Shown: positions 38,901 to 44,198 of the stretch, in pieces
Layout of the letters: every line of letters begins with the position of its first letter
Position numbering within the stretch: position 1 is the first letter of the stretch
Assembly (NCBI RefSeq): GCF_013299165.1
Contig: NZ_JAAFKD010000012.1
Location: 62,001-126,000, forward strand
Reading direction: 5' to 3'
Source: Microcoleus sp. bin38.metabat.b11b12b14.051
GTDB lineage: Bacteria; Cyanobacteriota; Cyanobacteriia; Cyanobacteriales; Microcoleaceae
DNA: 64,000 nt
The notes under the pieces: model-generated
Database searches by the model: none
Seen by the model: the letters and a program-made list of their open reading frames with translations, nothing else
What the model was told of the DNA's origin: nothing
Translations under genes and position numbers: made by a program

Positions 38901-39312
38901 GGTACCTGCAACTTATACAGTGTTGGAGTCTATGCCGCTAACCCCCAACGGTAAAGTTGACCGCCGGCTATTACCTCAGATAGATACAGCCAGCGAGGAT
39001 CTAACAGTAAATTATGTAGAACCTCGGAATGATATCGAAGAGGCGCTGGCGAAAATTTGGGCTAAAGTTTTGAGAAAACAGCAAGTTAGTATCTACGATA
39101 ATTTCTTTGAATTAGGCGGGCATTCCCTGCTAGCAACGCAGTTAATTTCTCGCATCCGAGATGCTTTGCAAGTCGAATTACCTGTCAGCAATTTGTTTGA
39201 ATCCCCGACAGTGGCGAGTCTAGCAAAATACATTGAAACAGTGCGCTGGGCTGCTAAAAATCAAACGACTACCAACCATAGCGTAGATACTAGAGAAGAG
39301 GTGGAATTTTGA
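35977..39312 (+). CDS. NRPS module 1: C-A-T, predicted Ile/Val-activating
   Basis: The 1111-residue single-module NRPS has a condensation domain at about 24-450 (HHIASDDWS near 159), an adenylation domain at about 470-965 (YTSGSTGKPKG at 648, YGPTENTT, YKTGDLCRY, NGKVDRR) and a carrier domain with FFELGGHSLL (Ser1050 takes the phosphopantetheine). The ten specificity residues read by homology to GrsA are DAFFLGVTFK, an Ile/Val-type code. Opening with a C domain means this module either accepts a fatty acyl starter or an upstream peptide encoded elsewhere. The C-terminal tail ends with acidic DTREEVEF, a possible docking motif. I chose ATG 35977 because earlier in-frame sequence is not C-domain-like. 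Confidence 0.9.
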   Translation: MVSENYDNSFTGYRPNLNISERAEVFVFPASFAQQRLWFLDQFAPENPFYNVVTALRLTGSLNITALEQTFNEIVQRHETLRTTFAAVSGEPMQIISPDSPINLQILELQDLPPEQRHTEAQKITCAESLRPFNLSTGPLMRVTILRLTERDHVLLLNMHHIASDDWSIGVLIREIQAIYTALINRQPSPLPELSLQYADFAEWQRQWLQREVLETQLAYWRQQLRGISVLNLPIARPAPARQSYRGQTQYLELPKKLQDGLVAMSQRAGATLFMTLLAAFQTLLYRYTGQADIVVGSPIANRNRSEIEALIGFFVNTLVLRTDCSGNPTFRDFLGRVREVTLGAYAHQDLPFEKLVEELHPERSLNRHPLFQVVFGLQNAPVDELELPELKLSSFYLETQTTRFDLELHLWEAADKFRSRYGAQWQDSEGLRGVLIYNPDLFDEITIARMLSHFKTLLESIVANPEQGIANLPLLSEDEVNQLLGEWNDTRTDYPQNKCIHQLFEERVEQHSEDVAVTCDSQHLTYKELNIKANQLARYLQKQGVGAEVLVGLCAERSIDLIVGMLGILKAGGAYLPLDPSYPRDRLNLMLEDAGIEVLVIQDKLSANFRDFSHLVIKCDRDWEQIATESTENLTNTVTADNLAYVIYTSGSTGKPKGVAVTHKAVNRLVLNTNYINIEPTDKIAQASNASFDAATFEIWGALLNGAQLAIISTNITLSPHDLALELRQQQITILFLTTALFQQIARVLPQAFNSLRCLLFGGEVADVRCVKKVLKQLQTTQLIHVYGPTENTTFSAYYPVRDVPETATSLAIGRAIANTQIYLLDGELQPVAIGIPGELYLGGDGLARGYLNRPDLTAAAFIRDRFSNKPDSYLYKTGDLCRYWVDGNIEFLGRADNQVKIRGYRIELGEIEAALCQHPQVSQAAVIVREDIPGEKDLAAYIILDDINQNSEIPNLKPTDLRQLLKQKLPGYMVPATYTVLESMPLTPNGKVDRRLLPQIDTASEDLTVNYVEPRNDIEEALAKIWAKVLRKQQVSIYDNFFELGGHSLLATQLISRIRDALQVELPVSNLFESPTVASLAKYIETVRWAAKNQTTTNHSVDTREEVEF

Positions 39313-42300
39313 ATATAGTTGAATTTATCTCTTACCTTCGCAGTCTAGATATTAATATTTTTGTGGAAGGTGAGCGCCTGCGCTGCAACGCTCCTGAAGG
39401 CATTATCACGCCGGAATTGCGCGCCGAAATTTCTCAGACAAAAGCCGAAATTATTTCATTTTTACAAGCAGCTAATCGTACTTCTAATTTTACTTTGGCA
39501 CCGATAGTTCCTATTGCGCGCGACGGAAATCTACCGCTATCCTTTGCACAGCAGCGGTTGTGGTTTCTCGACGAATTAGTGCCGAACAATCCTTTTTATA
39601 ATGTTCCCGCCGCCTTGCGCGTGACGGGATCGCTCAATTTTCCGGCGCTACAACAAACCTTCAATGAAATATTGCGCCGTCACGAAGCTTTGCGGACGAC
39701 TTTAGCGGTGGTGGCGGGCGAACCCGTGCAGAGAATAGCTGATGCTTTTCACCTGCCGATTTATGTATTTGACTTGCGAAATTTGCCCGAGGAATCTCGC
39801 CAAAGTGAAGCAAATCGGCTCACGGCTAAGGAAGCTCAACGCCCTTTTAATTTGTCTACAGATTTGTTGCTGCGCGTGACATTATTGCATTTAGATGATG
39901 GCGAATATTTGCTGATGCTGAATATGCACCACATTGTCTCCGACGGTTGGTCGATCGGAGTGCTAATTCAGGAATTAGGCGCAATTTATACGGCCTTTGC
40001 GATCGGCAAACCTTCGCCTTTACCGGAGTTGTCGGTGCAGTACGCTGATTTTGCAAAATGGCAGCGCGAATGGCTCCAAGGCGAAGTTTTAGAAACGCAG
40101 CTTGCTTACTGGCGGCGGCAGTTAAACGGCATTTCGATGTTAAATTTGCCTGCGGATCTGCCCCGCCCCGCAGTTCAAAGTTATCGAGGAAAAAGGCTGC
40201 TTTTGCAACTGCCAAAACCGCTCAGCGAGGCTTTGGAAATGTTGAGCCAGCGCCAAGGAGTGACGCTGTTTATGACAATGCTGGCAGCTTTTCAAACGTT
40301 GCTTTACCATTACGCGCAGCAGGAGGATATTGTTGTCGGTTCGCCGATCGCCAATCGCAACCGCAGCGAAATCGAAGCATTAATCGGTTTCTTTGTCAAC
40401 AGTTTAGTGCTGCGTACAGATTTGTCGGGAAATCCCACTTTTGTGGAACTTTTAAACCGAGTCAAAGAAGTCGCATTAGGAGCTTACGCTCACCAAGATT
40501 TGCCGTTTGAGAAGTTAGTCGAAGAATTGCACCCCGATCGCGCGCTGAACCAAAATCCCTTATTTCAGGTAGCCTTTGCGCTGCAAAACGCGCCCGCACA
40601 GCCGCTAGAATTGCCAGAATTAACCTTCAGCCCGCAGCAGTTAGACGTGCAAACAGCCAGGTTTGACTTAGAATTGCATTTGTGGGAGCGATCGCCCAAC
40701 AGCTCGGAAAGCAACGAATCGCCGAGCAATAAGCTCTGGGTTGACACTTCCGAAGGCATTAGCGGGATGATGATTTACAGCGCCGATTTATTCGATGAAG
40801 CGACAATTTCTAGAATGATTGGGCATTTTCAAACCTTGTTAGAAAGTATTGTGGTAAATCCCGAAGAGCGCATCGCCTACTTGCAATATATGAGCGAGCA
40901 AGAGCGCGATCGTTTGTTATTTGAGTGCAACAAAACTGCCGTTAATTATCCGCAATATTTTTGCGTACACCAGCTTTTTGAGCTTCACGCCAAGCAAACG
41001 CCGGATGCAGTGGCGCTAATATTTGGAAACGAGCAAATTACCTATGGAGAGCTAAATATCCGCAGCAACCAACTAGCACGTTACTTGCAAAAAATTGGGG
41101 TGGGGGCGGAAGTTTTAGTCGGGCTGGGCTGCGATCGCTCGATCGAGCTAATTGTCGGGATGTTGGGTATCCTGAAAGCGGGGGGAGCTTATCTCATTTT
41201 AGATCCGAGCTATCCCGCGGCGCGATCGCACTTGACGATAAAAGACGCTCAAGTGTCAGTATTGCTTACCCGCCAGGGGTTGAAACCCCTGTCTAACAGC
41301 GAAAGTCGTCTAAAGACGACTGAAACAGGAGAAGTTTCTAGTCGGCTTCAGCCGACTTCAGCTATGAGCCAGGGAATTTATTCCCTGGCGGATGATGGCG
41401 AAGTGCAAGATTTAGAAACACAGTCAGATGATAAAATTCACCATCCAAGGGTTGTTTTTCTAGACACAGACTGGGCGACGATTTCTTGCGAAATCGCCGA
41501 CAATCCGACTAGCGCAGCCACAGCCGAAAATCTGGCTTACGCGATTTACACCTCCGGCTCCACGGGAAAGCCGAAAGCGGTGGAAATTGAGCACGGGAGC
41601 CTGTTGAATCTGGTTTTTTGGCATCAAAGAGAGTTTGAGGTGTCAGCGGGCGATCGGGCTACGCAAATTGCTGCGATCGCCTTTGATGCTTGCGGCTGGG
41701 AAATTTGGCCGTATCTCGCCACCGGATGTAGCATCTACTTTCCCGAAGATGAGATCCGGCGAGATCCTGAAAAACTGCAAAACTGGTTAATCTCAAAATC
41801 AATTACAATTAGCTTTGTACCGACACCGTTAGCCGATCGTATTTTGCGATTAGATTGGCCTCCAACAACAGCATTGCGAATCCTCCTGACAGGCGGCGAA
41901 AAACTGCAACAACATCCCATCAAATCTTATCCATTTAAGCTCGTAAATAATTACGGCCCCACCGAAAATACTGTTGTCGCAACTTCCGGTTATATTCCCG
42001 CCACAGAGCGAGACATCGCCCCGACAATTGGCCGCCCGATCGCGAACACTCAAGCATACATATTAGACAAATATTTGCAACCAGTACCCGCAGGCGTTGT
42101 CGGCGAATTGTACATCGGTGGAAACGGACTCGCTCGCGGCTACCTCAACCGCCCGGAGTTAACCGCAGCCAGCTTTATTTCCAATCCTTTTCAGCGAAAT
42201 TCACGAGAGCGAATTTACAAAACCGGCGACTTAGTGCGGTACATATCCGACTACAACCTAGAATTTTTAGGACGGATTGACGAACAAGTAAAAATTCGCG

Positions 42301-44198
42301 GTTTCCGCATCGAATTAGGCGAAATAGAAACAGTATTGACTCAACATCCGGCGGTACAGCAAACTGTAGTAACAACTGCGGAAGACGGACAAGAAAATAA
42401 ACGTTTATTAGCTTATATCGCTCTGAATCCAGAATATAGCAGCGCCAGCGAAACCGACCAAATTATCGAATTGCAAGCCGAACAAGTTTCGCAGTGGCAA
42501 ATGCTCTACAATGAAACCTACAATCAACCTGCCGCCGAGTCAGATCCAACATTTAATATAGTCGGCTGGAATAGCAGTTATACCAATCAGCCACTCCCAG
42601 CGGAACAGGTGCGCGAATGGGCGAACAATCAAGCCGCCCAAATTTTAGCTTTGGAGCCGCAGCGAGTCTTAGAAATTGGCTGCGGCACAGGCTTAATGCT
42701 GTTTCAAATTGCACCTCGCTGCACTGAATATTGCGCCACTGATTTTTCCCCAATTTCGATTAACTACATTCAACAGCACCTAGCAAATCAAGAGTTAGCT
42801 AATGTCACGCTACATCAGAAAATGGCTGCTGACTTTACCGGAATAGAAACAGCAGCTTTTGACGCAGTAATTCTCAACTCTGTAGTGCAGTATTTCCCGA
42901 ATATCGACTATCTCATGCAAGTGCTAGAAGGTGCCGTGCAAGCAACTGCTCCCGGCGGCTTTATCTTCATCGGAGATGTGCGGAGTTTGCCGCTGCTGGC
43001 TGCTTTCCACGCTTCAGTACAACTGTATCAAGCCGAACCGAGTCTGGCTGGTGAACAGTTGCAGCAGCGAGTACAAATGCAAATGTTTCAAGAAACAGAG
43101 TTAGTCATTCACCCAGATTTTTTTAGTGCATTACAGCACCGCTTTCCGCAGATTGGCGGCGTAGAAATTCAATTAATTCGTGGCAGTTACCACAATGAGT
43201 TAACTAATTTTCGGTACAATGCTATTCTGCATCTGGCACCGGAAAACAATCTACCAAACCCCCCTAATAAACAAGAGATTGAGACATCGCAACGGCTAGA
43301 TTGGTCGGCGCCAAATCAGCATCTGACTGTTAGCAATGTGCAACAAATATTATTAGAGAATCAACTGGATAGCTTGACAATTGCCAACGTACCTAATGCA
43401 CGGGTAACTGCTGCGGTAAAAACTGCCGAATTGCTTTCAAATCCTGAGACAATTAAAACAGCAGCTCAGTTACAGAAAGCTTTGGAAAAACTTGGAGATT
43501 TAGGAATAGATCCCGAAGCTTGGCATGACTTGGAAGTTCCATATAATGTTAGTATTGCTTGGTCTAATTCCGACAGTGACGGGCGCTACGATGTAGTGTT
43601 GGCGCGAGGCGAAACTCGAAATTTTGTGCGATCGATCGCAGGCGACAAGTTGCTTCCGTGGCGCTCTTATGCTAACAACCCCTTACAAGCGAAAGCAGCG
43701 CGCAAATTAGTGCCGCAGTTGCAGGCTTATCTAGCAGAAAAACTGCCGGAATACATGATTCCGTCGGCTTTTGTGGTACTGGAGTCGCTACCGGTGACGG
43801 CTAACGGAAAGGTCGATCGCCTCGCTTTACCCGCACCAGAGCCGATTAAGTTAGAATGGGCTGACGGTTATCTTGCGCCTCAGACTGCGATCGAGCAAAT
43901 GTTAGTCAAAATTTGGGTTGAGGTTTTGGGAATCAAGCGAGTGAGTATCCGCGACAATTTCTTTGAATTGGGAGGCCATTCGCTGCTGGCGACGCAGCTT
44001 GTTTCGAGAGTGCGAGATGCTTTCGGGATAGAGTTACCTTTACGCAGCGTTTTTGAAGCACCGACAATCGCAGAATTATCTGAAGTTGTGGAAAGTTTAA
44101 AGGATAAGAATGCTAAAAGCGAAGTTCCGGCTTTAGTGCCGATTTCCCGGGATAGTCGGCGGCGAAAGCTATCATCTTTGAATCAAAAAAGTAAATAA
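39309..44198 (+). CDS. NRPS module 2: docking-C-A-(N-methyltransferase)-T, predicted N-methyl-Leu
   Basis: The 1629-residue protein starts with a TubC-type docking domain (MNIVEFISYLRSLDINIFVE, residues 1-55), then C (HHIVSDGWS), A with YTSGSTGKPKA at 747, a methyltransferase inserted between the A8 and A10 motifs (LEIGCGTGLML near 1120), A10 (NGKVDRLAL) and a carrier domain (FFELGGHSLL, Ser1558). Specificity residues read DAWFLGNVVK, the classical Leu code. The TTG start overlaps the previous stop in TTGA and is preceded by GAGGTGG, so translation is coupled. A 40-residue repeat-encoded insertion at 655-694 lies between A2 and A3 motifs; whether the A domain still folds is not known. Confidence 0.9.
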   Translation: MNIVEFISYLRSLDINIFVEGERLRCNAPEGIITPELRAEISQTKAEIISFLQAANRTSNFTLAPIVPIARDGNLPLSFAQQRLWFLDELVPNNPFYNVPAALRVTGSLNFPALQQTFNEILRRHEALRTTLAVVAGEPVQRIADAFHLPIYVFDLRNLPEESRQSEANRLTAKEAQRPFNLSTDLLLRVTLLHLDDGEYLLMLNMHHIVSDGWSIGVLIQELGAIYTAFAIGKPSPLPELSVQYADFAKWQREWLQGEVLETQLAYWRRQLNGISMLNLPADLPRPAVQSYRGKRLLLQLPKPLSEALEMLSQRQGVTLFMTMLAAFQTLLYHYAQQEDIVVGSPIANRNRSEIEALIGFFVNSLVLRTDLSGNPTFVELLNRVKEVALGAYAHQDLPFEKLVEELHPDRALNQNPLFQVAFALQNAPAQPLELPELTFSPQQLDVQTARFDLELHLWERSPNSSESNESPSNKLWVDTSEGISGMMIYSADLFDEATISRMIGHFQTLLESIVVNPEERIAYLQYMSEQERDRLLFECNKTAVNYPQYFCVHQLFELHAKQTPDAVALIFGNEQITYGELNIRSNQLARYLQKIGVGAEVLVGLGCDRSIELIVGMLGILKAGGAYLILDPSYPAARSHLTIKDAQVSVLLTRQGLKPLSNSESRLKTTETGEVSSRLQPTSAMSQGIYSLADDGEVQDLETQSDDKIHHPRVVFLDTDWATISCEIADNPTSAATAENLAYAIYTSGSTGKPKAVEIEHGSLLNLVFWHQREFEVSAGDRATQIAAIAFDACGWEIWPYLATGCSIYFPEDEIRRDPEKLQNWLISKSITISFVPTPLADRILRLDWPPTTALRILLTGGEKLQQHPIKSYPFKLVNNYGPTENTVVATSGYIPATERDIAPTIGRPIANTQAYILDKYLQPVPAGVVGELYIGGNGLARGYLNRPELTAASFISNPFQRNSRERIYKTGDLVRYISDYNLEFLGRIDEQVKIRGFRIELGEIETVLTQHPAVQQTVVTTAEDGQENKRLLAYIALNPEYSSASETDQIIELQAEQVSQWQMLYNETYNQPAAESDPTFNIVGWNSSYTNQPLPAEQVREWANNQAAQILALEPQRVLEIGCGTGLMLFQIAPRCTEYCATDFSPISINYIQQHLANQELANVTLHQKMAADFTGIETAAFDAVILNSVVQYFPNIDYLMQVLEGAVQATAPGGFIFIGDVRSLPLLAAFHASVQLYQAEPSLAGEQLQQRVQMQMFQETELVIHPDFFSALQHRFPQIGGVEIQLIRGSYHNELTNFRYNAILHLAPENNLPNPPNKQEIETSQRLDWSAPNQHLTVSNVQQILLENQLDSLTIANVPNARVTAAVKTAELLSNPETIKTAAQLQKALEKLGDLGIDPEAWHDLEVPYNVSIAWSNSDSDGRYDVVLARGETRNFVRSIAGDKLLPWRSYANNPLQAKAARKLVPQLQAYLAEKLPEYMIPSAFVVLESLPVTANGKVDRLALPAPEPIKLEWADGYLAPQTAIEQMLVKIWVEVLGIKRVSIRDNFFELGGHSLLATQLVSRVRDAFGIELPLRSVFEAPTIAELSEVVESLKDKNAKSEVPALVPISRDSRRRKLSSLNQKSK
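41271..41390. repeat. 120-bp palindromic module inserted in frame in the NRPS A domain
   Basis: Terminal inverted repeats CGCCAGGG (41271-41278) and CCCTGGCG (41383-41390) enclose four nested hairpins: AGGGGTTGAAACCCCT, AGTCGTCTAAAGACGACT, AGTCGGCTTCAGCCGACT and the CCAGGGAA/TTCCCTGG right arm. Length is exactly 40 codons and no stop occurs in the gene frame. The sister modules have no counterpart at this place. Confidence 0.85.

Follow-up and report, generated by a model that had tools for sequence, protein, structure and literature searches.

How does a strongly palindromic stretch of DNA come to lie within the reading frame of a biosynthetic gene without breaking it? The question is raised by an NRPS gene of a Microcoleus genome, located on the forward strand at 39309..44198 of the window (the whole stretch of 64,000 nucleotides that was analysed, to which all positions refer) and encoding a protein of 1629 amino acids with TubC_N docking, condensation, adenylation (A), methyltransferase and carrier domains. 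A preliminary description of this DNA reported an in-frame palindromic module of 120 bp, or 40 codons without a stop, at 41271..41390 on the same strand, and both the coordinates and the frame proved to be right: the module encodes residues 655-694 of the open reading frame 39309-44198. It also placed the module between motifs A2 and A3 of the A domain, where sister modules would have no extra residues. This agrees with the spacing of the A2 and A3 landmarks, which are 116 residues apart here and 70 in the one sister module matched by pattern, hence 46 extra residues. Separately, the A3 motif at 41550-41585 reads GKPKAV in the window and GKPKGV in close orthologues, a change that might affect activity.

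The 120 bp are a real unit, but a slice of a larger one. Comparison of copies sets the limits of the repeat core, CCGCC...GGCGG, at 41270..41391. Outside this core, the copies have CCnnnAGT and ACTnnnGG in common, so that the true element must exceed 120 bp and its ends must have diverged in the window copy; with these ends included, and following the consensus ..CCnnnAGT-core-ACTnnnGG.., the full element may span 41261..41405. The left end of the window copy looks shortened. The terminal inverted repeats, first described as eight bases long, are present and measure 9 bp (CCGCCAGGG/CCCTGGCGG, at 41270-41278 and 41383-41391). Likewise, the four hairpins exist but are arranged in tandem rather than nested. 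Hairpin 1 (41274..41291, CAGGGGTT-GA-AACCCCTG) and hairpin 2 (41304..41321, AGTCGTCT-AA-AGACGACT) make up the first half, and a variable spacer (41322..41339) separates it from hairpin 3 (41340..41357, AGTCGGCT-TC-AGCCGACT) and hairpin 4 (41368..41389, GCCAGGGAAT-TT-ATTCCCTGGC). The two 52-nt arms of the module show 75% complementarity to each other. In the window copy, the CAGGG core of hairpin 4 begins 96 bp (32 codons) past that of hairpin 1 and in the identical codon phase; loss of the intervening DNA would therefore preserve the frame. The acidic stretch noted downstream of the module is there as well (41391..41447 on the forward strand, residues 695-713), but comparison of flanks indicates that part of it is likely the eroded outer end of the element, the other part belonging to the A-domain loop.

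The proposal that the module is a repeat unit was borne out by searches of its own genome and of related strains. In its own genome, blastn returned 27 matches, certain places being counted on both strands, and a covariance model constructed from 26 copies (model R1) returned 80 matches over both strands, with 21 full-length places by our count. Beyond it, blastn matches were found in 30 of the 39 genomes searched as relatives and model R1 matches in 29 of 29 Microcoleus genomes, the own genome being included in both figures. The full-length places and the matches in all congeners exclude the possibility, raised at the outset, that no other copy exists anywhere. In a sample of the phylum, the model had matches at E<=1e-10 in 45 of the 292 genomes drawn, from 26 of the 115 genera. 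Per-genome copy numbers from the genus and phylum scans, in which the best candidates were scored, are to be read as "at least". The core is mostly 116-135 bp long; phage records gave no match to the element and plasmid records gave two partial ones. The module is confirmed as belonging to a dispersed family of non-autonomous four-hairpin repeats of filamentous cyanobacteria, small elements that are probably mobile.

A candidate for the enzyme that would move it emerged from its neighbourhood. The own genome has ten Y1_Tnp matches. Two closely similar copies of the element flank one of these, and the others have no copies within the flanks fetched. The same arrangement recurs across the genus, with copies on both sides of all nine full-length close homologues of this transposase (82-100% identity) and copies near a tenth, truncated one. 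None of the 11 distant homologues (35-51%) had copies in the flanks fetched, which extended to at most 1.5 kb and were shorter at contig ends for L266 and L271. The bracketed transposase scores 84.3 bits with the IS200-type TnpA model NF033573 (cut-off 55) and 96.6 bits with PF01797, above its cut-off, and only 24.1 bits against a cut-off of 80 with NF047646, the model for REP-associated tyrosine transposases. Only 9 of the 29 congeners have a full-length close homologue and 20 have none, including the copy-rich genomes G001, G002, G006, G008, G012, G020, G041 and G043; there, the transposase has been lost, was missed in drafts, or another enzyme acts. We infer that the element moves and that this transposase is its likely mover.

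Copies of the element also lie in frame in other genes. The copies examined were taken from best-scoring lists, and the following fractions describe that chosen set rather than genome-wide rates: 31 of 170 unique copies, drawn from 226 loci, lie in frames open for at least 40-60 codons on either side, and by a stricter rule 27 of 145 copies lie inside long open frames, as compared with 0.25 expected with shuffled flanks. The 145 derive from 150 full copies, five of which were dropped for ends off the pattern; L028 is among the 31 and absent from the 27. The hosts of the 31 are DUF4347 genes (22 copies, 16 loci), a TPR/glycosyltransferase-61 (GT61) gene (4 copies, 3 loci), the NRPS A domain (2) and, with one copy each, an NRPS condensation domain, an AMIN-like secreted protein and L034. 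The 22 copies in DUF4347 genes may be traceable to one or a few insertions. L034, a frame of 202 aa for which Pfam gave no match, is included in both counts and is not counted as a kind of host. Pfam was run on L189, L218, L213, L027, L210, L034 and the window NRPS, so that each kind of host is represented by one or two members and the others were placed by likeness to these; it named the host in six of the seven proteins, the AMIN match being marginal (21.1 bits, cut-off 20.5). Outside the genus, one of 43 copies is in frame (L358 in G164, in an unassigned frame called membrane-like by eye).

The preliminary description had supposed a repeat able to enter coding DNA without breaking it, and this is supported: at least five unrelated types of protein contain copies in frame (NRPS, DUF4347, TPR/GT61, AMIN-like and one membrane-like frame, four of them named by Pfam), and orthologues free of the insert exist. 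Over the 145 cores, 71 of 78 open frames fall in a single codon phase. Among non-coding copies, this same phase is open in just 45 of 236 cases, hence coding is not what the element is built for; the open copies would instead be those that survive in genes. Core length is divisible by three in 19 of 27 coding copies, as against 26 of 118 others.

Alignment of the A domain with its orthologues, as had been suggested, yielded loci both with and without the insert. Four of 80 named A-domain loci carry it (L278, L279, L282 and L283), all four with the 46 extra residues found in the window; they come from Microcoleus sp. FACHB-DQ6 (G002), the cyanobacterial MAG G013, Kastovskya adunca and Coleofasciculus sp. 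S288. The closest insert-free loci are L280, L281, L284, L285 and L286, and a normal A2-A3 loop is seen in M. vaginatus HSN003, Tychonema sp. LEGE 06208 and Microcoleus sp. FACHB-61, LEGE 07076 and MP8IB2.171. Distant orthologues with the same residues and no repeat structure would speak against a mobile repeat, and Kastovskya adunca (L282) comes part of the way: it keeps the 46 extra residues and its hairpins are visibly eroded, which fits the decay of an old insertion. Two further NRPS genes deserve mention. In G011 (L030:130-1500), a 1.4-kb insertion lies within the element copy, with an open frame that looks transposase-like, and the gene additionally shifts frame farther on. In G010, a second NRPS A domain (L031/L089) likewise contains a copy in this loop, in the same frame and followed by a similar tail, and the upstream part of this domain is broken by stops.

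Other host genes display a wider range of states. The AMIN-like protein has matches in 26 of 29 congeners and the TPR/GT61 protein in 27 of 29, and their best-matching relatives include full, tandem, partial or decayed, single-hairpin and empty forms. The flanking DNA shown for L407 and L424 is identical, L407 retaining one hairpin only, in frame; L431 and L432 likewise have a single hairpin and flanks closely similar to those of L425. Such single-hairpin forms are probably products of collapse rather than precursors. The DUF4347 relatives L232, L236 and L251 are devoid of the element, three of 30 loci having been read as empty with a narrow pattern. Neither the near-identical copies nor the empty DUF4347 sites provided a clean empty site, a junction or a target-site duplication. 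Several copies share flanks that continue into a different repeat containing TTAAGTTGACA, and TGTCAACTTAA or TTAAGTTGACA stands immediately outside the recent intergenic copies L184, L172, L215, L179 and L160; these sequences are part of another dispersed repeat, which may enclose the element.

How has the insert evolved within the A domain? In the 10 pairs compared, which are related and not independent, the dN/dS of the flanks is 0.11-0.34, as compared with 0.73-1.45 for the insert in the 9 pairs with differences, the latter values being based on 3.5-10 synonymous changes per pair. Judged from these codon changes, the insert is near-neutral while its flanks are constrained. Synonymous divergence is lower in the insert than in the flanks in all 10 pairs, again non-independent (0.136 versus 0.685 between the window and L283), and is zero in one of them, so simple drift in place since the genera split does not suffice, and recombination, conversion or repeated insertion is needed. 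Furthermore, comparison of the window with L278/L279 shows two base pairs of hairpin 1 changed, in each case on both arms together. The low synonymous divergence and the two-arm change suggest conversion or recombination. The insert could thus have spread among A domains mainly by exchange with NRPS genes or other copies of the element, rather than by a single, vertically inherited transposition, and we give this reading slightly less than an even chance; the copy in the same loop of the stop-broken A domain of G010, with its similar tail, adds to it. Exchange of this kind leaves the origin of the element and its copies in unrelated genes unexplained, and it is compatible with the overall explanation that we favour below.

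A further reading is co-option, with the inserted peptide retained for a role in the enzyme. The same 46 extra residues persist in five genomes, including Kastovskya and Coleofasciculus, and the tail shows a dN/dS of 0.34-0.89 in the seven of 10 pairs that give a value. The near-neutral ratio of the insert itself speaks against a role, as do the close orthologues that retain an open frame without the insert and the G011 copy interrupted by 1.4 kb. So does the predicted fold. The preliminary description had asked if residues 655-694 form a surface loop, and an AlphaFold2 model built from 43 sequences, whose best PDB matches are NRPS A domains, leaves the corresponding region disordered between two strands: model residues 118-168 (658-708 of the protein) have a pLDDT below 50, in a model with a mean pLDDT of 71 in which other loops are low too. 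Homology to proteins of the PDB halts at the start of the insert and resumes past it in the two alignments shown of 187 matching PDB sequences. We consider co-option unlikely; judging from the codon comparisons and the model, the insert is most likely a tolerated passenger loop.

Conservation of the hairpins bears on what recognizes the element. The module folds at -57.8 kcal/mol, as compared with a mean of -32.2 (sd 3.7) for shuffled sequences, none of 200 equalling it (z-score -6.9). Across the 26 copies, the four local hairpins show changes on both sides of the pair in 72 cells versus 17.1 in shuffles (0 of 500 as high), with 97.6% of cells paired. Across genera, 39 sequences give 207 double-change cells versus 54.8 (0 of 500) and 97.4% paired, one of five measures (further pair types, 40 versus 39.5) not exceeding the shuffles. 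These shuffles leave the relatedness among copies in place, and sliding the pairs by one to three columns destroys the four-hairpin signal. RNA folding favours a single long hairpin over the four local ones. As a conserved structure, the long hairpin is weak at best: its 28 double-change cells versus 20.9 are close to shuffle level and were attained by 4 of 500 shuffles, and its other measures by 50-338 of 500. The conserved feature is thus four separate hairpins, as would be expected for recognition of a single strand.

Strong folding and covariation could also indicate an RNA element acting in the transcript, through pausing, attenuation or mRNA stability. Rfam 15 has no match at E<=1 within 41000-41700, orthologues do without the insert and the hairpins are eroded in Kastovskya, all of which make a function in RNA improbable, and more so than co-option. 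An ordinary variable A-domain loop with chance hairpins, for which one might invoke the slight variation of A2-A3 length among relatives, can be dismissed, as the folding of the shuffles, the covariation and the genome-wide copies exclude chance hairpins.

The overall explanation that we favour, with a probability of about 0.8, is a dispersed repeat moved by a Y1 transposase and tolerated here in frame as a drifting passenger loop. The element would most likely spread as single-stranded DNA, its hairpins being recognized by an IS200-type Y1 (HUH) transposase encoded elsewhere, and would insert at many places. A copy landing in a gene would survive only in its one openable phase, with the frame kept and in a loop on the surface where extra residues are tolerated, which in this gene is the A2-A3 loop of the adenylation domain. 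The inserted codons would then be translated into a passenger loop, free to drift while selection acts on the surrounding enzyme. If the DNA separating hairpins 1 and 4 were later deleted, a single in-frame hairpin could remain, as seen in relatives of other host genes.

To which known system does the element belong? The preliminary description likened it to Rickettsia palindromic elements (RPEs), which are palindromic repeats lying in frame in unrelated genes, with a recurring peptide and in several families (PMC10969869; PMC3733652). Similar size, palindromic structure and in-frame insertion in unrelated genes support this likeness. The phylum and architecture differ, the element having four hairpins, most of its sampled copies outside genes and copies that bracket a Y1 transposase. 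Moreover, RPE-4 and RPE-6 are grouped with CGTC-tagged repeats (PMC3733652), and this tag is absent from the ends in the consensus of 26 copies, CGTC being found inside stems 2 or 3 of certain copies. A second likeness is to REPs or REPINs with their RAYTs (REPtrons), as hairpin units occur in inverted pairs, are dispersed and bracket a Y1 transposase gene; REPs within coding genes have already been described in several bacteria (PMC3733652). Here, however, the GT[AG]G tag (GTAG/GTGG) is absent from the hairpin foot in the consensus of 26 copies, and the transposase is matched by the IS200 model and scores under the RAYT cut-off. The cyanobacterial GTAG-12/15/16 REPs are likewise palindromic but GTAG-tagged by definition (PMC3733652), a tag that the element described here lacks. 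Non-autonomous derivatives of IS200/IS605 share an IS200-type TnpA and structured ends; the elements studied here carry no transposase and hold four hairpins. The element works like RPEs and like REPs with RAYTs; since the GTAG and CGTC tags are absent from its ends and its transposase is not a RAYT by model, it is filed under neither. A partial literature search, covering few subscription papers and mostly titles and abstracts, returned no description of the element or its peptide in cyanobacteria.

The loops that host the element also harbor other repeats. The N-terminal linker of the AMIN-like protein (L406, L408, L410, L417 and L419, L417 being from the own genome) contains a different in-frame repeat peptide, with GTGILPV and GGQDAHPT-like segments, whose DNA shows, by eye, GGCAAGATGCC-type near-palindromes; this suggests a second protein-compatible repeat family. 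More repeat-like peptides lie in the same variable linkers: VGAGSPTNL..NKPAPT in L420, and PPLAKGG in L427 and L434. In the DUF4347 genes L039, L144, L176 and L198, tandem peptides such as NDERAIDREYAIND stand beside or between copies of the element, so the DUF4347 loop gathers more than one type of repeat.

Rickettsia is the best-known source of palindromic repeats compatible with proteins, and we know of no demonstrated mover for them there. Tentatively, with a probability slightly below that of exchange among A domains, Microcoleus and its relatives may run a Rickettsia-like economy, in which several unrelated repeat families share landing loops, one family has an IS200-type transposase as its dedicated mover, and insertions shrink in frame to single hairpins when the stretch from hairpin 1 to hairpin 4 collapses, providing a reversible change of loop length. 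In this free-living lineage there are numerous congeners and a candidate for the cognate transposase, and corresponding positions of the same genes show natural copies that are full, reduced to one hairpin, decayed or missing. Such a system lets one test how repeats enter genes, why proteins tolerate them and whether they give rise to new loops.
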